Assembly: GCF_000379465.1 (NCBI RefSeq)
Contig: NZ_KB905407.1
Span: forward strand, 1-45,232
DNA: 45,232 nt
DNA from: Sciscionella marina DSM 45152
Lineage (GTDB): Bacteria; Actinomycetota; Actinomycetes; Mycobacteriales; Pseudonocardiaceae
Reading direction: 5' to 3'
The notes beneath the pieces are model-generated. The model saw only the letters and a list, made by a program, of their open reading frames with translations, made no database searches and was not told the origin of the DNA. A program made the translations under genes and the position numbers. Numbering within the stretch: position 1 is the first letter of the stretch; the number at the start of each line of letters is the position of its first letter. Shown piece by piece: positions 2,551 through 24,639 of the stretch.

Positions 2551-3694
2551 CCACTCGCTCGTCGCGACCCGGATGCGGTGTTCCGTACGACACCGGGAAC
2601 AGTTCCCGGTAGAAGTCGTCGCCGCGGAATCCGGCGGTGTGGTGCGGGGAATCCCACTCCAGCGCCATGACCTCGCTTCCGTCGGCGGGCCGGAGTTCCC
2701 CGGACAGGCGGTAATCGGGGTGCACGCCGTCGTCGCTGGGGGCCCAGTCGAAGGTGAGCGGGATACGGTCCCCGGGGGATACCGCGATCCCGTCCTGGGC
2801 GATCGGAGCATAGAGCGGTGGCCAGTTGGTGAGCTGCTGGACGGAGTCGATGGGCTCGCCGGTTTCGTCCACCCAGAGCCGTACCCCGAGCGCGAAACCG
2901 TGCAGCATGCCCTCCGTGGTCACCTCCAGTTCGAAGTGATCGGTGCCGGACCGGGCCAGCTCGCCGTTGAACTCGAGGGGTTCCACCTCCGCTTGGCCGG
3001 ACAACAGCGTCTCCCCGGTGATGCCGAAAATGCACATGCGTACATCGAACGGCCGCCCGACATCGGTGAAGATGTTCTGCAGCCATCCTTCGCTGCCCTC
3101 GACGAGCGCGGGCAGGCACGGACTGGGCAGCCGGTTCAGGTCCACCGCGGCGACCGTGCTCGTGCTGCGGTGCGGGATGAACCGGCCGCCGGGTTTGAGA
3201 AACCGCTTCCGGGCGTCGTGCAGCACCTCTGCGACACCTTCGGAACTGCTGATCGTGCCGATGATCTCGGAGACGCACAGGTCCACCGGTTCGGGCAGGG
3301 ACAGCTGGGTGGACAGTCCCTCCAGGATCGTCACGCGGTCGGTGAATCCGGCCCGCGCCACGGCGGCCCGCGCCAGTTCCGCGGACTCCGGCATCACCTC
3401 CATCGCATAGACGTGGCGCGCGCCGGACCGGACGCCCTCGATCGCCCAGATGGCGTCCGCGCCGGTGCCGATGTCCAGCACGGTCCGTCCGGGAGCGAGC
3501 CGCTGGACGGCGGTCCGGTACCACTCGGTCCGGAGCTCGTCCTCGATCATGTACTCGTAGAGCGTGCTGTCGAAGACGGGGTATTCGCCGACCGAGGGGA
3601 ACATGAAAAACCCTGCCTGCTCCCAATCCCGGTAGACGGAGACACCGATCTCCTCGGCACCGGCCTTGAGATTCCTGACCGTCCTGTCCTGCAT
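2534..3694 (-). CDS. PRMT-like SAM-dependent methyltransferase
   Basis: The enzyme has 386 residues. From the ATG at 3694 the SAM-binding motif I is TVLDIGTGAD (about 71-80), the acidic ribose contact is AMEVMPES (about 98-105), and the post-II loop is SEIIGTISSSEG (about 142-153). That loop has the two Glu of the protein arginine methyltransferase double-E loop. A beta-barrel-type C-terminal half follows, as in PRMTs. Bacterial relatives include enzymes that methylate the guanidine of free arginine in natural-product pathways, and others of unknown substrate. The ATG at 3694 has GAGGAA just upstream and is preferred over 3748. Membership of the PKS cluster is possible but not shown, because a TetR/membrane pair and the SARP gene lie in between. 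Confidence 0.78.
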   Translation of the reverse strand: MQDRTVRNLKAGAEEIGVSVYRDWEQAGFFMFPSVGEYPVFDSTLYEYMIEDELRTEWYRTAVQRLAPGRTVLDIGTGADAIWAIEGVRSGARHVYAMEVMPESAELARAAVARAGFTDRVTILEGLSTQLSLPEPVDLCVSEIIGTISSSEGVAEVLHDARKRFLKPGGRFIPHRSTSTVAAVDLNRLPSPCLPALVEGSEGWLQNIFTDVGRPFDVRMCIFGITGETLLSGQAEVEPLEFNGELARSGTDHFELEVTTEGMLHGFALGVRLWVDETGEPIDSVQQLTNWPPLYAPIAQDGIAVSPGDRIPLTFDWAPSDDGVHPDYRLSGELRPADGSEVMALEWDSPHHTAGFRGDDFYRELFPVSYGTPHPGRDERVATGSS

Positions 3695-3810
3695 CGATTC
3701 CTCATTCCTCAGCCCGGATCCCGATGGCGCTCCGGCGATGCACTCCATCGTGCCCCGCGCGGCCCTCCCCCGGTCCCCGGTCGGGCGGATTTCGGCAGGA
3801 TGCTCGTTTT

Positions 3811-7814: not shown

Positions 7815-8522
7815 TCAGCTCTCCCGGGCCTTCAGTGTGTCCAGACCGTACTTCGCCGGGGCCGCCTCGTGCCGGGAGGTGAACGGGCACTTCCAGTCCG
7901 GCTCGGTCATCCGCCCCGCGTAGTGCCGGGAGGGCATCTCGTACTCATAGGTCGTGAAACTCGGGTTCACCGAACCGTTGTTGTTCGTCTCCCGCTTGCG
8001 GATGGCGTCCTGCATCGAGAAAAACTTCTCACCGAGCAGCATGAACTGCATGAGGGAGTTGAACGCGATCGCCGGTCGTACGAACCGGCGGCTGGCCCGG
8101 GACGAGCCGGGGTGCATGCCCACCAGGAAGAAGGCGTGGCCCGCGACGTGAAAGCCGAAGTGCGGCTCGTTCGGATCCGAGGTGGCGCCGTCGTCCAGGC
8201 CGTAACTACGGCTGTCGATATCGTGCATCAGCTGCAGGTGCCGCCAGAGCAACCGCTCGAACTCGAGCTCCTCCAGCACCTCACCCGGCGTTTCGAAACT
8301 CGCCACGAAGGTGCGGAAGCTCTTGTCCGACAGGGTCGGGCGGATATCCCGGGCATAACCGAGCAGTTCCCGGTAGTTGGCGCGCGCCGACTCCGGCTCC
8401 CCCAGTGCCGGGTAGTGGCCGTGCCGGATGGTGCCTTTCTTGAGTGCCGAACGGGCACCGAGACAGCTGAATTCTTTGCTCTGAATGAACTCCTCGAGTT
8501 CGGCTCGGGCATCGGTGGTCAT
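7815..8522 (-). CDS. YqcI/YcgG family protein, GntA-like heme-dependent N-hydroxylase homologue
   Basis: The protein has 235 residues. Conserved blocks of the YqcI/YcgG family are present: HFGFHVAGHAFFLVGMHPGS (121-140) followed by SRASRRF, and NPSFTTYEYEMPSRHY (186-201). Characterised relatives are heme-dependent oxygenases that N-hydroxylate guanidines, namely GntA in guanitoxin and AglA (arginine) in argolaphos biosynthesis. By analogy this enzyme may hydroxylate an arginine- or guanidine-derived group, but family members with other roles exist. It is the last leftward gene before the terminator at 7773-7803 and follows the thioesterase after 146 nt, so it may belong to the same operon or have its own promoter. 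AAGGGG lies upstream of the ATG. Confidence 0.75.
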   Translation of the reverse strand: MTTDARAELEEFIQSKEFSCLGARSALKKGTIRHGHYPALGEPESARANYRELLGYARDIRPTLSDKSFRTFVASFETPGEVLEELEFERLLWRHLQLMHDIDSRSYGLDDGATSDPNEPHFGFHVAGHAFFLVGMHPGSSRASRRFVRPAIAFNSLMQFMLLGEKFFSMQDAIRKRETNNNGSVNPSFTTYEYEMPSRHYAGRMTEPDWKCPFTSRHEAAPAKYGLDTLKARES

Positions 8523-8668
8523 GACGCAACCCCTTCATCTCGGGCTCTGTTCGATGGCCGGTCGAAAACGCGCACGCGCACCCCGCGCCGGATCCGGTAC
8601 CGGCGTCGATCCGGGTGATGGTCCGATCGCGCGGCTGCCGCGCCGCGTCCGGGAAAGCGCCATCGCGC
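8523..8668. other. Intergenic region between thioesterase and GntA-like gene
   Basis: These 146 bases contain two small dyads: CCGGATC (8588-8594) with GATCCGG (8608-8614), and GCGCGGC (8629-8635) with GCCGCGC (8637-8643). They might weakly attenuate the PKS transcript or belong to a separate promoter for the GntA-like gene. I see no convincing -35/-10 pair. Confidence 0.35.
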
Positions 8669-9412
8669 TCAGCGCCCCAGCTTCGTTCGCACGGTGTGCA
8701 ACAGTTCCGGAACCCTGTTCTCGAGGTAGAAATGCCCGCCGGGATAGAGGAACAGGTCCGGATCGCTGCCCACTTCCAGCCACGACGCGAGCTCCTCGGT
8801 GTCGGCGCGCGGATCGTGATCGCCGCCGAAAACGGTCAATGGCACCGGAAGCACCGCTCCGGGCACGTGCCGATAGGTCTCGTTGACCGCGAGGTCGGCG
8901 CGCAGCAGCGGCAGGAACATCGACAGCAGCTCCGGTTCCCGGCGCAGCACCTGCGGCAGCCCGCCGAGCGCGTCCAGTTCGGCGGTGAGCCGGTCGTCCG
9001 GAAGCCCTCGCAGCGGCGGACGGTTGTCCGGAAGCTGCGGTGCGGCCCGGCCGGATACGAACAGGTGCCGTGGCGGGTGGGCACCGCGTTCCACGAGGCG
9101 CCGGGTGATCAGGTAGACGGCCAGGGCTCCCACACTGTGCCCGAAAAACGCGTAGTCTCCGGTGAACGCCTCACCGAGATCGTCCAGCGCATCGTCCACA
9201 AAGGACTCGATGTTCTGGTGCGGGCGTTCCCGGCCACGCTCGGCACGGCCGGGCGGTTGTACCGGGAGCACGGCGAGCCCGTCCCCCGCCTCGGCCTGCC
9301 AGTCGCGGTACACCAGCGCGCTTCCGCCTGCGTGCGGGAAGCAGAACAACTTGGTCACCCCGGTGCCGGGCATCCCGCCCGGCAGCCAGGGGCGTTCCGG
9401 CGCGCCAGTCAC
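8669..9412 (-). CDS. Discrete (type II) thioesterase
   Basis: This is a 247-residue alpha/beta hydrolase of the type II thioesterase family. The start region KLFCFPHAGGSA is the family's N-terminal signature. The nucleophile elbow is GHSVGA (Ser about 93), the acid lies in GGDHDP (about 197-201), and the His is in GGHFYL (about 227). Such enzymes remove stalled or wrongly primed acyl groups from carrier proteins. No PKS in the window has a fused TE, so this protein may also release the final product. The GTG start at 9412 overlaps the FkbH-like stop by 4 bp, indicating coupled translation. Confidence 0.9.
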   Translation of the reverse strand: MTGAPERPWLPGGMPGTGVTKLFCFPHAGGSALVYRDWQAEAGDGLAVLPVQPPGRAERGRERPHQNIESFVDDALDDLGEAFTGDYAFFGHSVGALAVYLITRRLVERGAHPPRHLFVSGRAAPQLPDNRPPLRGLPDDRLTAELDALGGLPQVLRREPELLSMFLPLLRADLAVNETYRHVPGAVLPVPLTVFGGDHDPRADTEELASWLEVGSDPDLFLYPGGHFYLENRVPELLHTVRTKLGR

Positions 9413-10476
9413 CGCACGTCCACGGTCAGATAACCGGGAGGCGGCTGGATCTGCGCCAGATCCGACTCCAGAACCAGTCGCTCGCCGTCCCGGGAGAGCT
9501 CGCGGAATCCGGCGAACGCGTAGGTCACGTACATGACGCGATTGCGGCCGGTCTCCACGAAGTCGGCGCGTAACGTGGCACCGTCGGCCTTGGCCAGCCC
9601 CATGATGTGATTGAGCAGCACCGTACCGACTCCGCGGGACATCACCCGGCAGGACATCAGCATCATCCGCAGGTGCCAGGCGGGTGTGCCGCGTTCGACA
9701 AGGGCCAGCCCGATCTTGCCGTATCCGCCGTACTTGTCCGAGAGCGAAGCCACGAGCAGCACGTGATCGGGCGAGTCGCGCAGCTCGTCGAGCTCGTCGT
9801 AGGAATAGACCCGCCCGGTCGAATTCAGCTGATTGGTGCGCACCGTCAGCTCTTCGGCCCGCTGCAGGTCCTCCCGCTGCGCCCGGCTGATCGTGAACGT
9901 CATGTCCAGTGTGGACAGGAATTCCTCGTCGGTGCCCTGATACTCCTGCTCCACCCGGTCCCGCTCGGCAGCGGCGCGGTAGAGCTGGCGGCGGATCCGC
10001 GACTCGTCGGTGACGAACCGGGGCCGGAACTCCTCCCCCGCGAGTACCTGTTCGAACCGGGCGGCGCCGACGGTCGTCACCGATGGCAGCGCGTGCGCCA
10101 CCTCGTCCAGCTCGAACTGCTGATCGTCGACGAACGCGATCGCGTCCAGGCCGATATTGAGCGCTTCGGCAACCCGTTCCACAGAGCCGGATTTGGGGTT
10201 CCAGTTGATCTGGGGATACAGGAAGTACTCCTCGAGCCCGGCGGCCCGCAGCCGTTCCATCGCCGCGTCGTGGTCATTGCGGCTGGCCACCGAATGCAGC
10301 ACACCCAGCTCGTCGAGCCGCTTGATCTCGGCGACCACCTCCGGCCGGACGGTCACTTCCCCGTCCTCCAGCAGCGTGCCCTGCCACAGCGTGTTGTCCA
10401 GATCCCAGACGACGCATTTGATCCGGCCCCTGCCGGGCTTCCGCGACGTGCCGGGCTCGGTTTCCGTGCTCGTCAT
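9409..10476 (-). CDS. fkbH: FkbH-like HAD-family glyceryl-ACP synthase
   Basis: The protein has 355 residues. The HAD motif I is VVWDLDNTLWQG (nucleophile Asp about 25, general acid Asp about 27), with SRND and FVDDQQFE as later HAD motifs. The C-terminal half is the GNAT-like part of FkbH proteins, with SDKYGGYGKIGLALVE and MSCRVMSRGVG. FkbH enzymes take 1,3-bisphosphoglycerate, remove a phosphate and transfer the glyceryl unit to a dedicated ACP. With the ACP, acyl-CoA dehydrogenase-like and 3-hydroxyacyl-CoA dehydrogenase-like genes next to it, this is the first step of an ACP-linked hydroxymalonyl or methoxymalonyl extender. ATGA/GTGA overlaps join it to both neighbours. Confidence 0.92.
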   Translation of the reverse strand: MTSTETEPGTSRKPGRGRIKCVVWDLDNTLWQGTLLEDGEVTVRPEVVAEIKRLDELGVLHSVASRNDHDAAMERLRAAGLEEYFLYPQINWNPKSGSVERVAEALNIGLDAIAFVDDQQFELDEVAHALPSVTTVGAARFEQVLAGEEFRPRFVTDESRIRRQLYRAAAERDRVEQEYQGTDEEFLSTLDMTFTISRAQREDLQRAEELTVRTNQLNSTGRVYSYDELDELRDSPDHVLLVASLSDKYGGYGKIGLALVERGTPAWHLRMMLMSCRVMSRGVGTVLLNHIMGLAKADGATLRADFVETGRNRVMYVTYAFAGFRELSRDGERLVLESDLAQIQPPPGYLTVDVR

Positions 10477-11612
10477 CGCGCCACCTCTCGATACGCTTCA
10501 TCGGCGATGGTCAGCTCCTGGATCTGGGTGCTGCCCTCGATGATTTCCATGACCTTCGCGTCCCGGTACAGCCGCGCGACCGGATAGTCCGGGCCGCACC
10601 CGTTCGCACCGTGGATCTGCACGGCATCCGAAGCGGCCCGTGCGGCGGCGGTGGACGCGAAGTACTTGGCCACCCAGGTGGCCATGATCGTCGCCGGATC
10701 TCCGGCATCCTTGAGTCGCCCGGCTTCCGCGCACAGCAGGCGCGCCGCATTGCGCGCGGTGACCATCTCGCTGATCTTCGCCCGGATCTGTGGCTGATCC
10801 CGCAGCAGACCGCCGCCCGCGCGACGCTGCGAGGTGTAGGCCGCCGAGGCGTCCAGGGCGGCCCGGATGATTCCCACCGAACCGCTGGCGACGCTGTACC
10901 GGCCGAGGTCGAGCGCACCGGTCATCACCGTGCCCGCCGCCCAGCCGGGCGGGCCGACCAGCGCGTCCGGGCCGAGCCGCACGTGGTCGAACTCGATCGC
11001 GGCGAGCATGCTCGCGGCGGTGCCCAGCACCCGTGAGACCGGGCTGACCCGCACGCCGGGATGGTCGGCCGGTACGAGGAACGCGCTCATCCCGCTCTCG
11101 GTTTCGGCGAACACCAGCAGCACCCCGGCCCGTTGCCCTCCGGTGATCCACTTCTTGGCGCCGTTGAGCACCCAGCCGTCGCTCTCGGCGACCGCCGTGG
11201 TGCCGGCCACCGTGGCATCGCTGCCGCTGAACTCGGGCTCGGTCAGGCAGAACGCGCCCAGGGTTCCGCCCGCGGCGAGTGCGGGCAGCCAGCGCTCGCC
11301 CTGCTCGGCTGAGCCCCAGCGCTGCACGGTCGCGGTCACCATGGTGTGCACCGTCAGCAGGCTGCGCACCGAGGAACAGCCGCGGCCGATCTCCTCGTGT
11401 ATCCGGCCGAGGGTGACCATATCCATGCCGGTACCGCCGGACTCGGCGGGCAGAAACGGGCCCCACAGTCCGAGTTCGCCCAGCCGCCCCTGCACTTCGG
11501 CGGGAATCTTCTCGGTCCGCTCCCACTCGTCCGCGTACGGGGCCACCTCCTCGTCCACGAACCGCGCGATCGTGGCGAGATCGGGTATGGCCGCCCGGGT
11601 CCCGGCGGTCAT
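10473..11612 (-). CDS. fkbI: FkbI-like acyl-CoA dehydrogenase family protein
   Basis: This 379-residue flavoprotein has the acyl-CoA dehydrogenase fold. Visible family marks are FCLTEPEFSGSDA and GWVLNGAKKWITGG in the N-terminal and middle domains, and DAVQIHGANGCGPDYPVARLYRD near the end. The catalytic Glu lies in IIEGSTQIQ (about 359). In the fkb-type cassette this enzyme acts on the ACP-bound C3 unit after oxidation of the 3-hydroxyl and helps form the free carboxylate of the malonyl-type extender. It overlaps both FkbH-like and ACP genes by 4 bp. Its place in the cassette supports the role more than its sequence alone. Confidence 0.9.
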   Translation of the reverse strand: MTAGTRAAIPDLATIARFVDEEVAPYADEWERTEKIPAEVQGRLGELGLWGPFLPAESGGTGMDMVTLGRIHEEIGRGCSSVRSLLTVHTMVTATVQRWGSAEQGERWLPALAAGGTLGAFCLTEPEFSGSDATVAGTTAVAESDGWVLNGAKKWITGGQRAGVLLVFAETESGMSAFLVPADHPGVRVSPVSRVLGTAASMLAAIEFDHVRLGPDALVGPPGWAAGTVMTGALDLGRYSVASGSVGIIRAALDASAAYTSQRRAGGGLLRDQPQIRAKISEMVTARNAARLLCAEAGRLKDAGDPATIMATWVAKYFASTAAARAASDAVQIHGANGCGPDYPVARLYRDAKVMEIIEGSTQIQELTIADEAYREVAR

Positions 11613-11872
11613 GTCACCGCCCCGCTCTCGGCGGCCTCCGCACGGCGCTGCACGAGTTCGGCCATCAGCACCACGGTGCGGAAATTCTCCAGCCGCAGCT
11701 CCTCGTTCGGAATCTTCGTGCCGAACGTCTTCTCGATGAACATGACCAGTTCCATCGCGAACAGGGAATTCACGAATCCCAGCGCGAAAATGTCCTCGTC
11801 GTCGGTGAACGACATTCCCGGAAACTTCGCGGCGATGAAACTACGAATGTCGTCGCGCACATCCTGCGCCAT
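11609..11872 (-). CDS. fkbJ: FkbJ-like discrete acyl carrier protein
   Basis: This is an 87-residue acyl carrier protein. The phosphopantetheine site is in GFVNSLFAMELV (Ser about 36), a typical sequence of carrier proteins that hold glyceryl-derived extenders. It carries the growing extender unit while the FkbH, FkbK and FkbI homologues modify it, then hands it to an acyltransferase. An AAAGAGG ribosome-binding sequence lies before the ATG. Its stop overlaps the start of the acyl-CoA dehydrogenase-like gene by 4 bp, and a 37-nt gap separates it from the dehydrogenase gene upstream. Confidence 0.92.
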   Translation of the reverse strand: MAQDVRDDIRSFIAAKFPGMSFTDDEDIFALGFVNSLFAMELVMFIEKTFGTKIPNEELRLENFRTVVLMAELVQRRAEAAESGAVT

Positions 11873-11909
11873 GGGGGAACCTCTTTCCTGTGGAATCGTC
11901 GGGCCGGTC

Positions 11910-12758
11910 TCAGGCGTGGGAGTAGCTGTGGAAACCCTTGCCGCTCTTCCGGCCGTGCAGTCCCGCCGCGGTCATCTGTTTGAGCAGCGGGCACGGCCGG
12001 TACTTGCTGTCGTTGAACTCCTCGTAGAGCACCTCCACGCTGTAGAGGATCGTGTCCACGCCGATCAGGTCCGCGGTTTCCAGCGGTCCCATGGGATGCC
12101 CGAAGCACTCGCGGAACACCTCGTCGACGGTGGCCGCGTCGGCGACCCCCTCGTGCACGAGGAACGCGGCCTCATTGACGGTCAGCATGAGCACTCGATT
12201 GGACACGAAACCGGACGCGTCGTTGACCGGGATGGGTTTCTTGCCCATCGACTCCAGCAGGGCCCGTACGGTGTCCTTTGTGGCCTCGCTGGTGTGATAC
12301 CCGGGAATGAACTCGCAGGCGGATTTCATCGGGACCGGGTTCATGAAATGCACCCCCATCACCCTGTCCGGGCGGCCGGTGCATGCGGCGAGCTTGGTGA
12401 TCGGGATGGCCGAGGTGTTGACCACGAATACCGTGCTGTCCTTGCAGGCCGCGTCGAGCCGCGGGTAAAGCCGCGCCTTGAGATCCCAGTTCTCGGTGAT
12501 GTTCTCGATCACCACCGCCGATTCGGCCAGTGTCTCCAGCTCGGTACCGGTGCCGATCCGCGCGAGCACCGCGTCCGCATCCAGCTCCGGCCCGCCCAGC
12601 ATCCGGCTCATCCGGCACTCCAGCCCGATGCGGTCCAGGGCAGCGGAGAGGGTGGCCCCGTCGACATCCACGAGCGTCACCTCGTGCCCGCTGGTGGCGA
12701 GGTTCTGCGCGACACCGGTGCCCATCACCCCGGCACCGACCACTCCGACCTTCGTCAT
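11910..12758 (-). CDS. fkbK: FkbK-like 3-hydroxyacyl-CoA dehydrogenase
   Basis: The protein has 282 residues. The N-terminal Rossmann motif is VGVVGAGVMGTGVA (about 4-17). Catalytic-region motifs of 3-hydroxyacyl-CoA dehydrogenases follow: NTSAIPITKLA, the HFMNPVP loop with the active-site His, and GFVSNRVLMLTVNEA. HPMGPLETADLIGVD closes the C-terminal domain. In the extender cassette it oxidises the 3-hydroxyl of glyceryl-ACP with NAD(P). The start overlaps the stop of PKS D by 4 bp (ATGA), tying the cassette translationally to the PKS genes. Confidence 0.92.
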   Translation of the reverse strand: MTKVGVVGAGVMGTGVAQNLATSGHEVTLVDVDGATLSAALDRIGLECRMSRMLGGPELDADAVLARIGTGTELETLAESAVVIENITENWDLKARLYPRLDAACKDSTVFVVNTSAIPITKLAACTGRPDRVMGVHFMNPVPMKSACEFIPGYHTSEATKDTVRALLESMGKKPIPVNDASGFVSNRVLMLTVNEAAFLVHEGVADAATVDEVFRECFGHPMGPLETADLIGVDTILYSVEVLYEEFNDSKYRPCPLLKQMTAAGLHGRKSGKGFHSYSHA

Positions 12759-15733
12759 CGTTCCTCCTTGGCTGCGTTGCTCTCGGCCGCATTGCTCATC
12801 GTCAGGTCCAGCACGCCGTCCAGCCGCCCGTGTGCGGCCCGCACCGCCTCGGCCCCGCCGGGGTGTTCGGCGGCGAACACCACCGTCGCGCCCAGCTCCG
12901 AACCGAGCCGGATCGCCAGATCGCGGGCCGTGCGGTCCACCGGGCCCTCCACCAGGTAGACCGGTTGCGGACGCGCCGCATCGGCTTCGCGGGCGCCGAG
13001 GGCGACCTCGGTCGCGGACCGGGCCGCCGTCGGCTCGATCCAGTACCGCTCACCGCCGAACACGTAGCCGGGCACCGTGGTCTTCCGCGGTTGTCGTCCC
13101 TCGTGGTAAGCGCGCCAGTCGAGCTCCACTCCGGACAGCCAGCACCGGCCGAGCGCCCCGGCCAGCACTTCGGTGTCCGGTCGGGGATCGGCCTCGCCGG
13201 GCAGGGTCGGCACGAGCAGCCTCCAGGACTCCTGCGGGAAGTCCGGGTGACCGCGGAACATGGCCCCGAGTGACTGCCCGGCACCGAGTTCCAGCAACAC
13301 CGTGTCAGGCAGGGCACTGGCCGCATGCTCGATCATCGCCGCGAACTGCACCGGACGGCACATGTGCTCGGCCCAGTAGCCCGGATCGCGGAGCTGCTTT
13401 GCGGTGATCGGCGCCCCGGTGAGGTTGGACAGGTACGGCACATCCGGTTCCTGCGGGTTCAGGTGCTGTCGCGCCCACGCGGTCAGTTCGGCGGCCACCG
13501 GGCGCAGGGTGCGCGAATGGAAAGCGTGCGTGGTGCGCAGCGGGCGCGCGGGGACACCGTGCTCGGCGAGGGCGTCCGTCAAGCCGGTCATCCCCTCGGC
13601 CGCGCCGGAGACCACGACCAGCTGCGGACCGTTGATCGCGGCGATATCCACCCCGAACGCCGCCGGATCACCCACCAGCGCGGTCAGTTCGGCCGCACCG
13701 AGCGGAACGGCCGACATCGCCCCGCGCGACAGCTTCTCGATCAGCCGGGCGCGGAACGCGACGAGCTCGGTCGCTTCCTCGAGCGTCAGCGCGCCCGCGA
13801 GCGCCGCGGCCGCGAACTCGCCGACGCTGTAACCGGCCAGCACCGAGGGCTCGATCCCCCAGGCGCGCAGCAGCCTGCCGAGCGCATAGCCGAGAGTGAA
13901 CACGGCGGGCTGGGTGAGCGCCGGGCCGGCTTCCTCGGTGTCGGCGGCACGGCCGAGCAGCCGCGCGAGCTCGCCGCCGCCGTCCGCGCGGGGCCCACGC
14001 AGGCTTTCCGTCGGATCGCTGCCGAGATCTCCGGCGAACAGGGCAGCGCACTCGTCGACCGCGGCCTTGAACTCCGGTTCGCTCTCGTAGAGTCCACCGG
14101 CCATACCGCGGTACTGCTCGCCGACCCCGGGGAGCAGAAACCCGGCCCGGCGCGGAATGCTGTCGGCCTCGGCGAGGATCCGGGTGTCCTGGGCGGCAAA
14201 GACTTCGGCTGCGTCCTCGGGCGAGGACACGACGGCCATCCGCCGGTGCGCGAAGGTCTTGCGCCCGGTCTGCAGCGTGTACGCCACATCGGCGAGATCC
14301 GTCCAGTTCTCCCGATCGGCGGCGAGCCGTTCGCCGGCGGCCGCGGCGGCTTCGGCGGTCCGGGCCGACCAGACGAGCAGCTGGTGCGGGCGCGCGGCGG
14401 GACGCGGTGCCGGTTCCGGCTCCGGGGCCTCTTCGAGCACCACGTGTGCATCGGTTCCGCCGAAGCCGTTGGCGCTCACCCCGGCCAGCCGTGGGCGCCC
14501 CCCACGCGGCCACGCGGTGGGTTCCCGCGGCACGACGAGTTTGTCTCCGCTGTGCGCGAACTGCGGATTCGGGCGTTCGAAGTTGATCGCGGGTGGCAGT
14601 TCCTCGTGATACAGCGCGAGCGCGGCCTTGATCAGCCGGGCGATCCCACCTGCCTGGTTGATGTGCCCGAGGTTCGCGTCGATCGAGCCGAGTGTGACCT
14701 GTTCGACGTCCTCGACGTCGAAGATCCGCTGCAGCGCGGCGATCTCGGCCACGTCGCCGAACGGAGTCCCCAGCGTGGACACTTCGACGTGATCGATGTC
14801 CGAGGGTTCGACATCGGCCGCGGCCATGGCCTCCGCGACGACCGCTGCCTGGCCGGGAACACCGGGGCGGTTGAACGACTGGCGGCCCTGCCTTCCCTCG
14901 TGGTGGATCGCCCAGCCGCGGATTACGGCGTAGACGCGGTCCCCCTCGGACTGCGCGTCCTCCAGTCGCCGCAACACGATCACGCCGAGACCATTACCGG
15001 GTACCTTGCCGGTGGCCTCGGCGTCCAGGATCCGGTTGACCCCGTCCGGGGCGAACCGGCTGTCCGAGCGGTAGAGGTACCCCGGCTCCTGGGGCACCAC
15101 GACCGACACCCCGCCGGCGACGGCGAGATCGGACTCGCCGGTGAGCAGGCTGGAGCACGCCTGGGCGACCACGCTCAGCCCGGTGGAGCTGCAGCTCTGC
15201 ACACTCACCGAGGGCCCGGTGAAATCGAGCGCGAACGACAGGCGCGAGGCGAGCAGATCCTTCTCGTTCTGCAGGATCAGCTGATCCGGCCCCACGGTCA
15301 GCGCCGTGACATCGTTCTGCAGCAGGTTCGACATCAGATAGGTGCTCGGCGCGCCACCGGTGAACACCGCGGCCAGGCCCTCGACCCCGTCCGGATCGAT
15401 TCCCGCGTCCTCGAGCGCGTGCCACGCGCACTCCAGGAACAGCCGGTGCTGTGGGTCGAGCAGTTCGGCATCGGCCCGGTCATAACCGAAGAACTCCGCG
15501 TCGAACCGGTCGATGTCGGGCAGCATCCCGGCCGCGGCGACGAACGCGGGATCGTCGGCCAGTTCCGCGGAGACGCCCGAGTCGAGCAACTCCTCGCGGG
15601 TCATCCGGGTGATGCCGTCCCGCCCCGCGCACAGATCAGCCCAGAACTTGTCCAGGGTGGGGGCCCCCGGAAAATTCCCGGCCATGCCGACGATCGCGAT
15701 GTCGTCGGCGGTGTCCCGTGGTTGCATGGCCAT
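12755..15733 (-). CDS. PKS D: discrete KS-AT protein with non-catalytic KS and KR remnant
   Basis: The protein has 992 residues and resembles a truncated PKS module. The KS domain (about 10-430, DIAIVGMAGNFPG) aligns without gaps to hybrid-type KS domains. In the active-site stretch VQSCSSTGL (179-187) the Cys column holds Ser182, with a Cys one residue earlier, and EAHGTGT has become EVSTLGT (Ser319 for His). The second His (NLGH, 357) remains. The AT looks complete: GYSVGE (Ser636) and THAFHS (735-738, malonyl-like). After the AT only a scrap of KR follows (YLVEGP to RLDGVLDLT, about 924-975). There is no ACP and no docking helix. ATG 15733 has GGAAGGTG upstream; a GTG at 15745 overlapping the PKS C stop is the alternative. 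Inferred role: in-trans acyltransferase for module C2. Confidence 0.85.
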   Translation of the reverse strand: MAMQPRDTADDIAIVGMAGNFPGAPTLDKFWADLCAGRDGITRMTREELLDSGVSAELADDPAFVAAAGMLPDIDRFDAEFFGYDRADAELLDPQHRLFLECAWHALEDAGIDPDGVEGLAAVFTGGAPSTYLMSNLLQNDVTALTVGPDQLILQNEKDLLASRLSFALDFTGPSVSVQSCSSTGLSVVAQACSSLLTGESDLAVAGGVSVVVPQEPGYLYRSDSRFAPDGVNRILDAEATGKVPGNGLGVIVLRRLEDAQSEGDRVYAVIRGWAIHHEGRQGRQSFNRPGVPGQAAVVAEAMAAADVEPSDIDHVEVSTLGTPFGDVAEIAALQRIFDVEDVEQVTLGSIDANLGHINQAGGIARLIKAALALYHEELPPAINFERPNPQFAHSGDKLVVPREPTAWPRGGRPRLAGVSANGFGGTDAHVVLEEAPEPEPAPRPAARPHQLLVWSARTAEAAAAAGERLAADRENWTDLADVAYTLQTGRKTFAHRRMAVVSSPEDAAEVFAAQDTRILAEADSIPRRAGFLLPGVGEQYRGMAGGLYESEPEFKAAVDECAALFAGDLGSDPTESLRGPRADGGGELARLLGRAADTEEAGPALTQPAVFTLGYALGRLLRAWGIEPSVLAGYSVGEFAAAALAGALTLEEATELVAFRARLIEKLSRGAMSAVPLGAAELTALVGDPAAFGVDIAAINGPQLVVVSGAAEGMTGLTDALAEHGVPARPLRTTHAFHSRTLRPVAAELTAWARQHLNPQEPDVPYLSNLTGAPITAKQLRDPGYWAEHMCRPVQFAAMIEHAASALPDTVLLELGAGQSLGAMFRGHPDFPQESWRLLVPTLPGEADPRPDTEVLAGALGRCWLSGVELDWRAYHEGRQPRKTTVPGYVFGGERYWIEPTAARSATEVALGAREADAARPQPVYLVEGPVDRTARDLAIRLGSELGATVVFAAEHPGGAEAVRAAHGRLDGVLDLTMSNAAESNAAKEER

Positions 15734-15741
15734 CGCGCGGT

Positions 15742-18700
15742 TCACCTTCCGGTCCGGCTCGGTCGTTTGCGGAGATTCGCGGCGCGGGCACGGCGGCGCT
15801 GTCCGCGTGCGGAGACATCCTCGGTCACCCCGCCGGGCCCCGCGGGCGCCTCGTCGGATTGCGGTTCGCCGAGCAGGGTGACGAATTCGGCAATGGTCGG
15901 CTTCTCGAAAAGACCGGCCGGGGCCAGCTCGACACCGAACTCCTTGGCCACCCTGCCGATCAGCACAAGCCCGATCAGCGAGGTGCCGCCGAGGTCGAAG
16001 AACGGATCGTGCACACCGACCCGTTCCAGGCCGAGGCATTCGCACCAGGCCGCGGCGACCCGCTCCTCGACCGGAGTGCGCGGGGCGAGGAACGCGGTGC
16101 GCAGCTCCGGGCGCGGGTAGCGCTGTCCGGACGGCACTCCGGTCTCGGCACCACCGAGCAGCGCGTCCACCGAGCCCATCCGGCCCAATGCGCCGAGTAC
16201 CTCGGTCAGCGGCAAGGGCAACACGGTCACCTGCGGCTCGGCCGAGGCGAGGATCCGGGTCAACAGCTCGGTGCCTTCCTCGGCCCCGATGCCGAACTCC
16301 TCCCGGAACCGGCGCGCACCGTCCTGCAGCTCGGCCGATCCGGAGAGCCCGGAGCTGGTCCAGGCATCCAGCTGCCACGGTCCCCAGGCCACCGAGACCA
16401 CCCGTTCGGCCGCCTTGCCGAGCGCGTTCTCCACCGCGGCGAACCCGTCGAGGAAGGCGTTGGCCGCGGAGTAGTCGGTCTCGCCGACGCCGACGGTGAG
16501 CGTGACCGTCGAGGAATACAGCACCAGCACCTCGACCGGTTCCGCGCGCAGTGCCTCGGCAAGGGCCAGGGTGCCGTCGATTTTCGGGGCCAGCACCGCG
16601 GCCGCCTGCTCGCGGGTCTTGTTCTGCAACAGGCCGCCTCCGGCGATACCGGCCGCGTGCACCACTCCGTCCAGTGCGCCGAAGTGACCGCGCACCTCGG
16701 CCAGCAACGCGGCCGCCTCGCCGGGAACGCTCACATCGGCCCGCACCGTCAGCACCTCGGCACCAAGCGCGCGCAGGTCCCGGATCGCGAGCAACACCGA
16801 GCTGGTCCGGTCGTCCACTCCGTGCGCGCCGATCCAGTCGTCCCAGCTTTCCTCCGGCGGCAGTGCACTGCGACCGGCGAGTGCGAGGTTCACCCCGAGC
16901 GGGGCGAGCCGCCGCGCGAGGGCCAGCCCGAGCACCCCGAGCCCACCGGTGATCAGGTAGGTGCCACCGGGTTTCCACGCCTGCTCCGCGGCGGCCTCGG
17001 GCAGCTCCACGACATCGAAATCCCGCAGCCAGCGACGGCCACCACGCCAGGCGGCCACCGCGACCCCGTCCACCGTGTCCGATGCGGATACCGGAGAGGC
17101 GGCGAGCAGATCGAGTTCGCTCAGCGCCTGGTCCGCCGGGTTCCCGGTTCCCGTCCCGGTTTCGGCGAAATCGGCGTACTGCGCGCGGACCAGGGGGTAC
17201 TCCGCGGCGATCGCGTCACCGGCAGCGGCCAGCGTCGGACTGAGCGGATCGGTGGCGTCCGCCCCGAGCACGTCGAAACCACAGCGGCCAAGGGTCAGCA
17301 GCTCCACGCGGCGCGCGGAACACTCGGCACCGATCGCCTGGCCGAGCCACATCAGGCTGTAGAAACCGGATTCCCGGTCGCTCGCGGTCAGCCCGTGCGC
17401 GTGCACCACCCGCAGCGGACCGTCCCCGCCCGTGGCAGCCAGCACCCGGCGGTAACCGTCCACATCGGACGGTTCGCCACCGGCCAGGGTGACCCGATGC
17501 CCCGCTTCCCTGGCACGCCTGGTGAACTCCTCGGCGAACGGGCCCGGCTCGGCGAACAGCACCAGTTCCCCCGGTTCGGCGGGGATCCGGCGCGTGTTGT
17601 CCCTGCGCCAGGTCGGAACATGAGTGACCAGTCCGTCGCGCTCCGGTGCCGGTTCCGCAGCGGTCTCGTTCCCGGTTCCGGTCATCTGGGACATCGACCA
17701 GCTGCTGCCTCGCGATTCGACCTCGGGCCAGTAACGCGTGCGCTGGAAACGATAGGACGGCAGGCGGACGAACTGGCGACCCGGTCCGGCCCCGGCACTC
17801 CAGTCGATCCGCACACCCAGTTCCCACAGCCTGCCGAGCGCGGTGAGCCAGCACCGCCGGTCGTCCCCCGGCGCAGGATCGGCGAGCAAGGACACCACCG
17901 GAGTCCGCGGCGCGCACTGTGCGGCCGTTTCGGCGCCGATCGCGTCGAGCCCGGCCTCGACGAGGATCTCGGCATAGTCGGTGGCGGCCCGCAGCCCGTC
18001 GATGAACCGGTCGGCAGAACCGGCCCAGTGTTCCGGATCCGTGGCCTCCGCCGCGGTGAGCTGCTTGCCGGTGCGCGCGGAGATCACCGGGATCGCGGGC
18101 GCCCCTGCGGCCGGAATCGTCGCGCTAAGCGCAAGTTCGAGCCCCTCGGCGAGACCGAACAGCCCACCGGCGACGGCCGCGACGCACTCCCCGGTGCCGC
18201 GGCCGAGCAGCACCGCGGGCTCCAGGCCCCAGGCGGTCAGCAACCGCCAGTAGGCGTATTCGACGGCGAAAACCACAGCGCGCTCGTCGGCCTCGGCCGT
18301 CCCGGCCAGGGCGGCGAGCAGATCGACCGCACCGTCCGGATCCGCCCGGCGGGCCAGCACGACGGCGCATTCCTCGATGGCAGCGCGGAAGGCGGGCTCG
18401 GTGCCGTAGAGCTCGTCGGTGACCTGTGTCCATGGCCGCACGGTTCCGGGCAGCACCAGGCCGAAGCGCCGGCGGTCGGCGCTCGCCGTTTCGTCGGTGT
18501 CCGCACCGCCCTGCAGATCACGCAGTGCCGTGACGGCCTCGGCGGCATCGCGCACCACCACCGCCTTGCGCCGGGGCAGCGCGCTGCGCCCCGCCTGGGT
18601 GGTGAAAGCGACGTCGGCGAGTTCGAGGTTCCGCTCCGTCTCCAGGTGTTCGGCCAGCGCCTCGGCATTGGCGCGCAGCCCGGCCTCGCAGTGACCGGAT

Positions 18701-21700
18701 ACGGTGAGCAGTTGCCAGTCCGGACCCGGCCGCGGCGCCACGGCGGGCGTGGCCGCGTCGAGTACGAAGTGGACATTCGTCCCGGACCAGCCGAAGGAAC
18801 TGACCCCCGCTCGCCGCAGGCCCTCGGCATTGACCGGGAACGGCAGCACACCGGGCACCGGCCGCACCGTGCCCTCCGGTGTGACGACCGAATTCGGCTC
18901 GGTCAGATTCAGGTTTCCGGGCAGCGTCGAGTGTTCCAGCGCGAGCACCGTCTTGATCAGGCCCGCCATGCCCGCGGCAGCGAGGGTGTGCCCGACGTTC
19001 GTCTTCACCGCGCCGACATACAGCGGATCCGGCGCGGTGCGCTCGGCGAAGATCTCCTTGAGCGCGGTGAACTCGATGGCATCTCCCAGCTGGGTACCGG
19101 AGCCGTGCGCCTCGACATAACCGATCTCGTCGGGCAGCGCCCCCGCATCGGCGAGGGCCGCGCGGATGACGGCGTGCTGCGCGGCACGGTTCGGGGCGGT
19201 GAGGCCGTTGCTGCGGCCGTCCTGGTTGGTCGCGGTGCCCCGGATGACCGCCCGCGCCCGCCCGGCCGGGCCGACCTCTCCGGCACGGCGTAGCACCACG
19301 ACCCCACCGCCCTCACCGATCACGTAGCCATCGGCCGATTCGTCGAAGGTCTTCGTACGCCCGTCGGCGGCGAGCATGCTCATCTTGCAGGACTGGATGA
19401 AGACGTCCGGGTTGATCATCGCCGAGGTGGCTCCGACGATGGCGATATCGCACTCGCCGCGGCGCAGGCTCTGCACCGCGAGATGCGCCGCGCTCAGCGC
19501 CGAGGAGCAGGCCGTGTCCACGGTCAGGCAGGGCCCGCGCAGATCGAGCAGGTGCGCGATCCGGCCCGCCGCGGCGGACAGTGAGCTCCCGAGCCCGAAG
19601 TACGGATCGTCGGCCGCCCCGACACCGTCGGCCTCCAGCTGACGCATGCTGTACTGCATGGTGTCGATCAGGCCTGCGAACACGCCGGTACGGCTGCCAC
19701 GCAGCTCCTCGGCGGTGAGCCCGGCGTCCTCGATCCCTTCCCAGACCAGTTCCATCAGCAGCCGGAAGGACGGATCGAGGCGGCGCGCCTCCTGCGGCGA
19801 GAGGCCGAAGAACGAGGCGTCCCAGCCGTCGAGTCCGGAGACGAACGCTCCCTGCTGGGTGTATGCCTTGCCCGCGGCGGTGCGATCCGGGTCGTAATAG
19901 TCGGCGGCGCGCCAGCGTTCCGGCGGGACCTCGCGCACCAGATCCCGGCCCTCCACGAGGTTCGTCCAGAATTGCTCGGGTGTATCGCTGCCGCCGGCGA
20001 ACCGGCAGGAGAGCCCGGCGACGGCGATGTCGAGGCCCGCGGAGCCGGGTTCGGTCACGGTCGCGCCGGTCCCGGCAGAGGCCGCGGGCCCCAGTTCGGT
20101 CAGCAGCTGCGCGGCGAGCGCGGCGGGGGTGGCGTGGTCGAACACCATCGTCGGCGGCAGTGCGAGGCCCGTCTCGGTGTTGATCCGGCCGCGCAGTTCG
20201 ATCGCGGTCAGCGAGTCGATGCCGAGTTTGGTGAACTGCTGCCCGGCCGGGACACCTTCGGTGTGCCCCAGCACGGCTGCGGTGTGCGTGCGGACCAATT
20301 CGGTGAGGACGCGTTCCCGCTCCGCCTCCGGCATCCCGACGAGCCGGGCGCGCCACGCTTCGGCGGTCTCGGTTCCCTCCTGCGCGCGAGCGGCCTCGGC
20401 CTCGGCGATCGCGCGGACCTCGGGCAGTTCGGCGAGCAACGGGCTCGGTCGCAGCGCGGCGAACGGCGGCGCGAACTTGTCCCAGTTCAGTTCGGCGACG
20501 GTGAGCGCCAGCGCGTTCCGGTCGAGTGCGTTGCCGAGAGCCGCGAGCCCGGTCTCCGGTGCCATCGCGGGTACCCCGAGGCCGCTCAACAGCTCGTCCA
20601 GTTCGGCACCCACACCCATGCCGACCTCACCCCAGCGTCCCCAGGCGATCGAGGTCGCGGGCAGGCCCGTGGCCCGGCGCCGTTGCGCGACCGCCTCCAG
20701 GTAGGCGTTCGCCGCCCCGTAGGCGCTCTGCACGGCATTGCCGATGGATGCGGCGATCGAGGAGAACAGCACGAACGCGTCGAGTTCGAGGTCTGCGGTC
20801 AGTTCGTCGAGATTGCGCGTACCGGCAACCTTGGGGCGCAGTACATCCGCGTAGCGCCCGCGGTCCATGGACTCGACAAGGCCGAGATCGAGCACACCGG
20901 CAAGGTGGAACACCGCGCGCAGGTCCGCCCGGACGGGCCGCAGCACCGCGTCGAGGGCCTCCCGGTCGGCGACATCGCAGGCGAGCACGCTCACCCGCTC
21001 GCCGAGTTCCGTGATCAGTTCCGCCGCGCCCGGTGCCGCACTCCCCTGCCGGGACACGAGGACGACCCGTTCGGCGCCGTGCTCCACCAGCCAGCGGGCC
21101 AGGATTCCGCCCAGGCCGCCGGTTCCACCGGTCACGAGCACCGTGCCACGCGGTCGCCAGGATCGTACCCGCTCGGTGTGCTCGGCATGCGTGAGACGGC
21201 GGCCGAAGGCTCCGGTGGCGCGGATCGCGACCTGGTCCTCAGCGCGCGGACCGGTGAGCACCCCGCGCAGCAGTGCGACGGCGGATTCGCTCACCTGCTC
21301 GGGAACATCGACCAGACCGCCCCACCCCTGCGGGTTCTCCAGCGCGGCGGCACGGCCGAATCCCCACAGCTGAGCCTGTTCCGGCGCCTCCGGCGCCTCG
21401 TCTTCGGCCGCGCACACCGCCCCCCTCGTCACCGTCCACAGTGGACCCTGGGGTTCGCGCGCGGACAGCTCTCTGACCAGTTCCATGCTCGCCTCGGCGC
21501 CGAACGAGAGCCCCTCGGTCTCGGTCTGGTCGAGTGCCAGCAGCGAGACGATGCCGTCGTAGGGTTCGCCATCCGGGAGTTCGTCCAGGGACACCTCATC
21601 GGGGCGATCGAGCACCAAGCGGCGCACCTCCGCGCCGGAGAGCGCCTGGAGCGTCGCCGCCGTCCAGGGATGTTCCTCGGAAGCACTGGAGCTGACCAGC

Positions 21701-24639
21701 AGCCAGCGGCCACTGGCGGTGGTGCTCGCGGGCGTGCACGGCTGCCAGCGGATCTCATAGCCGAGCGCGTCCGCCTCGGCCGCCGCCGAACGGGCGCGCC
21801 GATAGCGGGTCAGCGCGGGCAGCACCGTGCCGAGCGGGGCCTCGCTGTCGGAGAGCTTGAGCTCGGCGGCGAACTCGCCCACATCGCCTGCTTCGACGAC
21901 CGACCAGAACCGACTGTCCTCGGTTCCGCCGACCACACGATCCGCACCGGGGTCCTCGAGCCAGAACCGCTTGCGCTGAAAGGAATAGCCCGGCAGCGCG
22001 ACGGTGCGGGCGCCGCTGCCCGCCAGGTACTCGGCCCAGTCCACGGCGGCCCCGTTGCTGTGCAATCTGCCGAGCGCGGTGAGCAGGGTCTGCGCCTCGT
22101 CCCGGTCCTTGCGCTGGCTCGCCGCGAACACCGCGTCATCGGGGCGGACCGACTGGCCCATCGGGGTCAGCGCGGCATCGGGCCCCAGTTCGAGAAACAC
22201 CCTCGCATCGTGCGCATGCAGTGTCTCGACGGCGTCGGCGAACCGGACGGTGCCGCGGACGTGCTCGGCCCAGTAGCCGGGGTCGGTGAGCCGCTCGGCG
22301 AAAGCACCGGTCAGTGTGGAGACGATCGGAATCGAGGGCTCGTGGTAGGTCAATGTCCTTGCCACCGCGGTGAATTCGGCGAGCATCGGTTCCATCAGCG
22401 CCGAGTGGAACGCGTGCGAGACCGTCAGCCGGGTCGAGCGGCGGTCCGGGAACCGCGCGGCCACCGCGAGGGTCGCCTCCTCCGCGCCGGAGAGCACGAC
22501 CGCGCGCGGGCCGTTGACCGCCGCCAGCGCCACCTCCCCGGACAGTTGCTCCCGGACTTCCTCCTCGCTCGCTTCCAGGGCGATCATCGCGCCACCCGGC
22601 GGCAGCGCCTGCATCAGCCTGCCGCGGGCGAGCACCAGCTTCGCCGCGTCCTCCAGGGAGAACACCCCGGCCACATGCGCGGCGGCCAGTTCCCCGACCG
22701 AGTGCCCCGCCAGGAAATCCGGGCGCACCCCCCACGCCGCGAGCAGTCGGTAGAGCGCCACCTCGAAGGCGAACAGCGCGGGCTGGGCGAATTCGGTGCG
22801 CTCGAGCAGACCGGGATCCGTGCCGAAGGCCACCTCCCGGACCCCGGGCAGGTGCGCGCATGCCTTGTCGAAGGTCTCGGCGAACACCGGGAAGCACTCG
22901 TAGAGCCGCTGGCCCATCCCGAGCCGCTGCGCCCCCTGTCCGGTGAACAGCGCCGCGAGCCGCCCGCCGGTGTCGCTGCCGGTCACGGTGCCCGCATCCC
23001 CATCGGCGAGCGCGCGCAGTCCCGCGGCCAGCTCCTGCCGGTCCGCCCCGGTGACCACCGCCCGATGCTCGAGCACCGTCCTCGTGGCCACGAGCGAATG
23101 CGCCACATCGACCGGTTCGGCCCCCGATTCGTCCACTGTGGACAGCAGCGCGGCGGCCTGAGCCCGGAGCGCGCCCGCCGAGGCACCGGACAGCGGGTAC
23201 GGGATCACCGGGGGCGTGCGGACCATCCGCTCGGCCGCGGCCTCCTCGACTGCCTGTTCGAGGACGACGTGCGCGTTGGTGCCGCTGATACCGAACGCCG
23301 AGACCCCGGCGCGGCGCGGCCGCTCGGTTTCGGGCCACGGCCGGGATTCGGTGAGCAGTTCCACCGCGCCACTCGTCCAGTCGACGTGCGGGGACGGTTC
23401 CCCGGCGTGCAGCGTCGCGGGCAGCACACCGTGCCGCATCGCCTCGACGGCCTTGACGATTCCCGCGATACCGGCCGCCGCCTGCGCGTGACCGATGTTG
23501 GATTTCACCGAACCCAGCCACAGCGGCGCGGTCGAGTTCGTGGCGGTCCGCTCACGTCCGTAGGTGGCCAGCAGGGCCTGGGCCTCGATCGGGTCACCGA
23601 GCGCGGTCCCCGTCCCGTGCGCCTCGACCATGTCCACGCCTGCCGCATCCACACCGGCATCGGCCAGCGCCGCCCGGATGACGCGTTGCTGCGCGGGTCC
23701 GTTCGGTGCGGTGAGCCCACTGGACGGTCCGTCCGAGTTGACCGCGCTCCCCCGGATCACGGCCAGCACCGGATGACCGTTGCGCCGGGCATCGGAAAGC
23801 CGTTCCAGCATCAGCATTCCGGCGCCCTCGGCCCAGTTGGTGCCATCGGCGGCCGCCGCGAACGGCTTGCATCGCCCGTCCGGTGCCAATCCGCGCTGAC
23901 GGGAGAACTCGACGAACGCGCCGGGCGTCGCCATCACCGTCACCCCGCCCGCCAGCGCCAGCGTGCATTCCCCGCTGCGCAGCGAACGGGCCGCCAGGTG
24001 CAGCGCGACCAGCGAAGAGGAACACGCCGTGTCCACCGAAACCGAAGGCCCCTCCAGCCCGAGCACATAGGAAACCCGGCCGGACACCACCGAGCCGGAC
24101 GTGCCGATGCCGAGATAGCCCTCGTGCTCCTCGGGAAGCGCGGTCAGCCTCGAGGCGTAATCCGTGAAGCCCACCCCGGCGAACACGCCGGTGGCGCTGC
24201 CCTTCAGCGAGTCCGGGGCGATCCCGGCCAGTTCCACGGCCTCCCAGGCGGTCTCCAGCAACAGCCGCTGCTGCGGGTCCGTCGCCTCCGCCTCCCGCGG
24301 CGAGATGCCGAACAGTTCGTTGTCGAACTCGGCGGCGTCGTGCAGGAAACCGCCCTCGCGGACATAGCTGGTGCCAGACTTCGACGCGTCCCGGTCGTGG
24401 ATGGCCTCGACGTCCCAGCCGCGGTCGGTGGGCCACGGCGAGATCGCGTCGACGCCGTCGGCGACCACATCCCAGAGCTGCCCCGCGCTGCGGACGCCAC
24501 CGGGGAACCGGCAACTCATCGCGGTGATCGCGATGGGCTCACGCTCCCTTTCCCGCACATCCGCGAGTTCGCGGCGAGTTTCGCGCAGGTCGGCCGCCAT
24601 CCGCTTGAGGTAGTCGACGTACTGCTCTTCCGAAGGCAT
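15742..24639 (-). CDS. PKS C: two modules, KS-AT-KR-ACP and KS-AT(dead)-KR-carrier
   Basis: The protein has 2965 residues. A docking coiled coil (1-33) opens the protein. Module C1: KS (Cys206, His341), AT (GHSVGE Ser647, HAFH 742-745, malonyl-type), KR (about 1166-1345, Tyr1307; LDL rather than LDD, so not clearly B-type), ACP (Ser1476). Module C2: KS (from about 1536, Cys1711, His1845) of the hybrid NRPS-PKS-like type, a broken AT, KR (GGLGVLG about 2560, Tyr2723), and a carrier with LGGTSL (Ser2887) like peptidyl carriers. The C2 AT reads GRGTGE where GHSxGE is expected (Gly2148 for Ser) and lacks about 110 residues including the HAFH/His region. There is no TE or C-terminal docking helix; the tail is basic. 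C1 predicts a beta-hydroxy ketide; C2 needs its extender in trans. Confidence 0.95.

Follow-up and report, generated by a model that had tools for sequence, protein, structure and literature searches.

We analysed a 45,232-nucleotide (nt) stretch of the Sciscionella marina DSM 45152 genome (contig NZ_KB905407.1, positions 1 to 45,232; hereafter the window), the minus strand of which encodes the end of a modular type I polyketide synthase (PKS) (Table 1). Here we describe the last protein of this line, PKS D, together with module C2, which is the second module of PKS C and lies directly before it, and the hydroxymalonyl cassette that follows it. A gap of 8 nt separates the PKS C stop from PKS D. 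The window ends in 287 nt (44946–45232) that recur without a mismatch at the start of contig C1 (L009:1–287), and the PKS gene cluster therefore continues on contig C1, where a paralogue of PKS D (named D′, 67% identical, with the same dead ketosynthase and the same acyltransferase signature) is encoded. The Cys, His and Lys-His motifs are intact in five of the six ketosynthases (KSs) of the window, that of PKS D being the exception. Leaving aside C2 and D, the five remaining acyltransferases (ATs) of the window have both GHSxG and HxxH. With these five ATs present, and only C2 lacking an active one, a full trans-AT PKS was ruled out. The initial annotation had placed the C2–D system at 12755..18470; the end at 18470 cuts C2, which begins near 20040.

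Judged by motifs alone, no domain of PKS D other than the AT is catalytically competent. Aligned to live relatives, the KS nucleophile Cys is replaced by Ser182 (VQSCSST, with a Cys one residue upstream, Cys181), the first His by Ser319 (VEVSTLGT versus VEAHGTGT) and the active-site Lys by Asp352 (DANLGH versus KxNxGH), while the second His357 is retained. The Cys and the first His are gone at the motif positions in all 24 dead-KS D and D′ proteins. On the other hand, the GYSVGE, R661 and HAFHS elements of the AT, with the catalytic pair Ser636/His739, are invariant across a 29-row alignment. There is no ACP (acyl carrier protein) and no complete ketoreductase (KR). The initial annotation was right about the intact AT motifs, the dead KS and the missing ACP, but its KR of about 50 residues is a tail of about 87 residues that resembles KRs only weakly (the lowest E, 0.002, being that of the D′ tail), and this tail is not present in the Lentzea and Allokutzneria proteins read. 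In the predicted model of D, the KS and AT folds are both intact (mean predicted local distance difference test score (pLDDT) of 87.1), and its best PDB match is the ClbI KS-AT didomain.

C2 has the reverse defect, as had been proposed from the motifs of its live KS, KR and carrier and its dead AT. The KS (DTACSS, EAHGSGT and KTNVGH), KR (Ser-Tyr-Lys) and ACP (GGTS) motifs are all intact, and no HxxHS motif exists between its KS and KR. The predicted model of the AT region (mean pLDDT 65.7, with residues 30–210 mostly above 80) is consistent with a remnant in which the large AT subdomain is left and the small one is missing. A counterpart of the Arg-rich tail of C2 is recognisable in 33 of the 33 C2 orthologues examined, whether the KS of D is live or dead. 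Because this tail has been kept, we suggest that C2 may still dock on D through it.

PKS D is followed by the genes for FkbK, the discrete ACP, FkbI, FkbH and the type II thioesterase (TEII). FkbH, ACP, acyl-ACP dehydrogenase and 3-hydroxyacyl dehydrogenase are all there, as expected of an fkbHIJK cassette for hydroxymalonyl-ACP. No methyltransferase, and hence no O-methyltransferase adjoining the cassette, was found in the six genes at 7815–12758. The 4-bp overlaps that were said to link D with the cassette exist at all but one of the five junctions between D and TEII; at the FkbK–ACP junction there is a 37-bp gap instead. A second FkbH homologue, 48% identical, is encoded in the same genome (G000:C30:25990-26943) on a contig that also carries PKS modules.

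Table 1. Features of the window discussed in the text
Feature	Position	Strand	Remarks
PKS protein	35864–45232	minus	3122 aa, truncated at contig end
PKS protein	24672–35816	minus	3714 aa
PKS C	15742–24639	minus	2965 aa, bimodular
Module C2, second module of PKS C	15742–20040	minus	KS, KR and ACP motifs intact, AT dead
Degenerate AT region of C2	17710–18711	minus	GRGTG for GxSxG, HxFHS absent; apparently without the small subdomain
Arg-rich C-terminal tail of C2	15742–15870	minus	Probable docking tail towards D
PKS D	12755–15733	minus	992 aa; pseudo-KS, AT with intact catalytic motifs, short tail
Pseudo-KS of D	14426–15706	minus	Residues 10–436
AT of D	13229–14146	minus	Residues 530–835; GYSVG, R661, HAFHS
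C-terminal tail of D	12758–13021	minus	Weak KR-like remnant
FkbK-like 3-hydroxyacyl dehydrogenase of the hydroxymalonyl-ACP cassette	11910–12758	minus	4-bp overlap with D
FkbJ-like discrete ACP	11609–11872	minus	
FkbI-like acyl-ACP dehydrogenase	10473–11612	minus	
FkbH	9409–10476	minus	TIGR01686, above cutoff
TEII	8669–9412	minus	
GntA-family guanidine N-hydroxylase	7815–8522		198.8 bits (cutoff 145)

We found the same layout in relatives. GTDB genomes were scanned with D and D′ as queries, and the best 80 of 301 relatives (76 loci) were used; a family search covered 390 genomes, with the dead-KS matches at the top of the ordered list, and a plasmid search gave one useful relative, L088. There are at least 22 distinct loci with a stand-alone dead-KS D, including the window, and further stand-alone copies may exist. 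L104 and L105, duplicates of L017 and L013, respectively, were not counted. The 22 loci found belong to five genera, Sciscionella, Amycolatopsis, Lentzea, Kibdelosporangium and Allokutzneria; some genus labels were taken from the genus groups of the family search, in which L023 (Nocardia sp. in its record) groups with Lentzea. In 22 of 22, D stands between an AT-dead or AT-less C2 and the cassette, with FkbK-ACP-FkbI-FkbH-TEII directly downstream of D. The KR and ACP motifs of C2 are intact in all 22 and its KS in 21 of the 21 where it is covered. Since the layout is present in all loci found to have a stand-alone dead-KS D beside the PKS, it is more than chance, and D, an AT-dead module and an fkbH cassette co-occur in these loci. 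In the three Allokutzneria loci, the C2 AT is wholly gone and the KS of D has other lesions (QAHSATS and TNASGT). Amycolatopsis azurea DSM 43854 (L025) has an orthologous C2-D-cassette-GntA block, in which D, FkbH and the GntA homologue are 80%, 85% and 80% identical, respectively, to those of Sciscionella. At about 17050–17829 of this A. azurea locus, a gene similar to Sfp-type phosphopantetheinyl transferases separates TEII from the GntA homologue; the corresponding interval in Sciscionella is too short to hold such a gene.

The phylogeny of D indicates where the protein comes from. The tree has 56 tips and was rooted by hand on L044; it omits L043, L050, L051, L053–L087, L101, L104, L105, L107 and L109, and L044–L046 are represented by a module further along the line rather than by the one at the D position. 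The states of the C2 AT were assigned by hand, and among the 32 live-KS tips it is live in 23, dead or absent in eight and not readable in one (L040). The live-KS relatives have D as the opening module of a two-module protein, KS-AT-KR-ACP-KS-AT-KR-ACP (by Pfam in L027 and L031, by domain strings in the others). The stand-alone dead-KS D proteins form one clade with a support of 1.00, nested in a larger clade (support 0.97) shared with butyrolactol-type loci. In this larger clade, the C2 AT is dead or absent wherever it is readable (L026–L029, L088, L097, L110 and the 22 loci); D′ and L016, also members, have no C2 alongside, and the loci with a live C2 AT fall outside. By this nesting, the C2 AT was lost first and the KS of D died afterwards; the tree places the KS death as a single event inside a clade already without the C2 AT. 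The initial annotation had regarded C2 and D as one module split in two. This must be revised, as D corresponds to the first half of a bimodular protein in its relatives and is thus the remnant of the next module, and the order of losses also contradicts a split.

The butyrolactol A PKS of Streptomyces sp. TP-A0882, compared here by its published description, may be close to the ancestral arrangement. According to that description, 10-16 ends with KS/KR/ACP, 10-17 has two AT-bearing modules and 10-18 is without an AT (PMC5932044). It therefore resembles the window in having an AT-less C2 counterpart, a D counterpart (the first module of 10-17) and the same cassette order, FkbK-ACP-FkbI-FkbH-TE (TE, thioesterase), as given for its locus (PMC5355916, PMC5932044). 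The same architecture is seen in L026, L028 and L088 as far as these loci reach. C1–C8 of butyrolactol, or four two-carbon units, are reported to derive from hydroxymalonyl-type units, and a hydroxymalonyl-ACP source is backed by feeding (PMC5355916). By colinearity, C7–C8 would be added by the AT-less last module of 10-16, and an AT from elsewhere must then serve this module. In L028, L029 and L088, a third module has a KS and a KR but no AT match (about 19059–21591, 19472–21971 and 31666–34060, respectively). Its KS-to-KR distance is 2.4–2.5 kb, about 0.9 kb less than in AT-bearing C2 modules. Thus, two ATs appear to serve four modules in these loci. The D of butyrolactol-type lines differs from that of Sciscionella, which is stand-alone with a dead KS, in being complete, with a live KS, KR and ACP, and in having two more modules after it, the second with an AT and the third AT-less; and eight carbons come from hydroxymalonyl-type units there versus one unit here. 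We infer that the butyrolactol-type loci represent an intermediate state, and that in the window the neighbour of C2 has been reduced to little more than an AT.

We compared the AT of D with ATs known to use carrier-borne extenders. GYSxG and the loss of basic RXR residues are described as a trend of ATs that use ACP-linked extenders, and ZmaA-AT of the zwittermicin pathway, which is specific for hydroxymalonyl-ACP, has GYSxG (PMC4207774). The AT of D has GYSVG, found in 24 of 24 dead-KS D and D′ ATs, and PAR at the RXR positions, with the first residue being Pro instead of a basic one. P-x-R is common to most of the butyrolactol-type ATs read. The five other readable ATs of the window combine GHSxG with a basic first RXR residue (R or K); in GHSxG ATs outside the window, this residue is sometimes Q, H or A (GHSQGE-type) and hence not always basic. 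ZmaA-AT is a sequence relative of D-AT (4qbu, E = 1.3e-38), but it is a domain of a PKS that loads the downstream ACP, and its RXR positions read MCM. In a midpoint-rooted AT tree (157 of 162 rows, with L104, L105 and L107 among those left out), the smallest clade that includes all 104 GYS-scored tips has 108 tips and a support of 0.78; the remaining four are three GHS tips and one mis-scored GYS tip. No other ACP-type AT was found in the window, and D′ was the only one in the adjoining 45 kb of contig C1.

Selection was compared as omega (dN/dS, the ratio of non-synonymous to synonymous substitution rates) in four groups of dead-KS loci, with the C2-KS values of Amycolatopsis and Herbidospora dropped because they had been computed on a different KS. 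The AT of D has an omega of 0.09–0.18, below that of the live AT of module C1 (0.14–0.28) in each group. The dead KS of D has an omega of 0.07–0.20, versus 0.05–0.20 for the live C1-KS, and this purifying selection indicates that the dead domain is maintained. Random decay of D was ruled out by this selection together with the conservation of the dead motif. For the C2 AT remnant, omega is 0.14 in Amycolatopsis, 0.19 in Sciscionella and 0.41 in Lentzea, where the constraint is weaker, and the remnant is gone in Allokutzneria.

One relative offers a natural control. L102 (6459–10823) has a D relative with intact KS motifs that has lost its AT, and a C2 relative without AT and KR. No FkbH match was found in the L102 genome (98% complete), while each of five other genomes searched alongside had one. 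In this one case, the loss of the extender was accompanied by the loss of the AT of D.

From the observed motif states, synteny, AT class signature, tree order and selection, we infer the transfer reaction, its substrate, the docking and the role of the pseudo-KS. PKS D is probably what erosion has left of the next module of a butyrolactol-like line, and it has probably been retained to serve C2 in trans as an acyltransferase for hydroxymalonyl-ACP. FkbH, FkbI and FkbK would build hydroxymalonyl on the discrete ACP, from which the AT of D (Ser636/His739) would take it and pass it to the ACP of C2; the live KS of C2 would condense the unit, and its KR would reduce the new keto group. The KS of D, being unable to condense, would be kept as a folded pseudo-enzyme, probably as a dimer scaffold and a docking face for the Arg-rich tail of C2. 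The ancestor would have been a butyrolactol-type polyol synthase that had already lost its C2 AT and borrowed that of the neighbour, and D would be the first module of this neighbour, stripped of KS catalysis, of its KR and ACP and of the modules that followed. The wider version of this proposal, a stepwise conversion of a cis-AT module into a dedicated in-trans hydroxymalonyl-ACP acyltransferase whose pseudo-KS was kept by selection as a scaffold for dimerization and docking that places the AT next to C2, stands at about even chances in our estimation. The initial annotation had also proposed that the AT of D moves an ACP-borne extender in trans onto C2 in an otherwise cis-AT line. We favour this on the sequence evidence, because of the partly matched AT signature, the 22/22 layout, the purifying selection on the AT of D, the tree order, the AT-less C2 counterpart of butyrolactol and L102.

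Three other explanations were weighed. D could be a terminal chain-release module in which the KS moves the chain from the ACP of C2 to an amino acid, as CalA3 of calcimycin biosynthesis does, with the AT being secondary. D is indeed the last of the line and has neither ACP nor TE, purifying selection acts on its KS, the genes for D′, SbnB and SbnA are closely spaced, and the title of the octacosamicin biosynthesis paper speaks of product release by intermolecular amidation. CalA3 is likewise an ACP-less and partly non-enzymatic PKS module at chain release, and it is reported that C197A, H332A, H372A and K367A abolish its amidation and that its AT is inactive (PMC10006239). Compared by motif, D lacks counterparts of three of these four required residues, only His357 being kept, and its AT motifs have been retained; the Cys and the first His are missing in all 24 proteins. 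Thus, D is the mirror image of CalA3, with a dead KS and intact AT motifs instead of a live KS and an inactive AT. For this reason we do not file D as a release module: CalA3-type amidation by its KS is disfavoured by the missing KS residues and by the 29-row invariance of Ser636, His739 and R661, and we consider it unlikely.

That D is a non-functional relic, with C2 fed by the AT of the C1 module, or with malonate by FabD, and the cassette serving something else, seems more doubtful still. A dead-AT module has been explained otherwise in irumamycin, where M12 is accounted for by M11 iteration (PMC11672594). This reading is opposed by the purifying selection on both the KS and the AT of D, by the retention of the layout in five genera and by the survey of ATs, in which the window has no further AT of the ACP type and the adjoining 45 kb of contig C1 none but that of D′. 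The least probable of the three is that the AT of D acts in trans on C2 with malonyl-coenzyme A (CoA), the hydroxylation occurring later. HAFHS is a malonyl-type AT motif, and an Arg is kept at the third RXR position of D-AT, both of which count for malonyl-CoA. The GYSxG motif and the 4-bp overlap of the cassette with D speak against it, as does the fact that the nearest live relatives are found in butyrolactol-type lines, for which the published feeding supports hydroxymalonyl (PMC5355916).

Several observations weigh against the trans-acting hydroxymalonyl-ACP acyltransferase that we favour. The third RXR position of its AT is Arg, whereas it is hydrophobic in ZmaA-AT, so the published ACP-extender signature is only partly matched. 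The survey of ACP-type ATs is limited to the window and the adjoining 45 kb of contig C1. The co-occurrence of C2, D and the cassette is inheritance and not 22 independent events, since the 22 loci share one origin of the dead-KS D. L102, whose C2 AT is dead, falls outside the main C2-AT-dead clade (with a weak support of 0.23), so the C2 AT may have been lost more than once; as a control, it is also a single case. The omega of the dead D-KS is slightly higher than that of the live C1-KS in all four groups, up to twofold in Allokutzneria. In Amycolatopsis, the C2 AT remnant is as constrained as the live C1-AT (omega 0.14 for both), and it may thus have a role of its own. Finally, D′ has the same AT signature, with neither a cassette nor an AT-dead module beside it.

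D′, SbnB, SbnA and a nitrilase-like gene form a tight row (L010:9717–15801, contig C1:29717–35801), SbnB and SbnA (both above cutoffs) being diaminopropionate genes. Contig C1 also has further PKS modules and genes for a FAD (flavin adenine dinucleotide)-binding oxidase-like protein, a discrete FabD-like AT and the nitrilase-like protein, whose family matches are below cutoffs. D′ is also found in S. sediminilitoris (L016); the two Sciscionella species share 97% identity in its KS and 89% in its AT. A D without an AT-dead module had been named as a case that would speak against the trans-transfer, and D′ beside SbnB/SbnA is partly such a case. Because the contig overlap puts D′ in the same gene cluster, it does not refute the model, and the idea of D′ as a separate, partnerless cluster was withdrawn on the 287-nt identity. 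The D′-SbnB-SbnA row may indicate that this fold has acquired a second function.

Octacosamicins are reported to be produced by Amycolatopsis azurea, and the orthologous block in L025 together with the guanidine chemistry suggests that the Sciscionella product is octacosamicin-type. The GntA-family gene fits an N-hydroxyguanidine product. The octacosamicin A cluster thus resembles the window in its C2-D-cassette-GntA block and differs in how D is read, here as a trans-acting AT. The work on octacosamicin biosynthesis reportedly stresses amidation and calls the terminal module, which would correspond to D, non-canonical in that it lacks ACP and TE. In a release by amidation, the amino acid would be glycine in octacosamicin and perhaps diaminopropionate in Sciscionella. 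Our reading provides a testable alternative to an extension or release role for the final PKS protein of octacosamicin biosynthesis.

In-trans loading of AT-less modules with ACP-linked extenders is already known; ZmaF (aminomalonyl-ACP) and OzmC (methoxymalonyl-ACP) are described as discrete trans ATs that load carrier-borne extenders (PMC6164871). As in D, their AT is on a separate protein, and the GYSxG of ZmaF (PMC4207774) is also present in D. D differs from these discrete ATs in being a KS-AT didomain that has a pseudo-KS and derives from a cis-AT module, in line with the initial remark that its architecture differs from the discrete zwittermicin AT. What is new is the eroded KS-AT module with surviving intermediates. 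In the open-access literature searched, we found neither a description of D as a trans-acting AT nor papers on inactive-ketosynthase didomains. The origin of trans-AT from cis-AT lines is hard to infer from end states alone. Here, the all-cis state (Herbidospora and others), the AT-sharing butyrolactol-type state and the dead-KS D all survive in sequenced strains, so each step from cis to trans can be tested. If the model is true, these loci preserve a route from cis-AT to trans-AT logic, with D as the converse of CalA3. D would also be an evolved KS-AT part with which AT-less modules could be supplied with hydroxymalonyl units. Near the edge of the cluster, at 2534–3748 of the window, we also found a methyltransferase-like protein with weak Pfam matches, including PRMT5.

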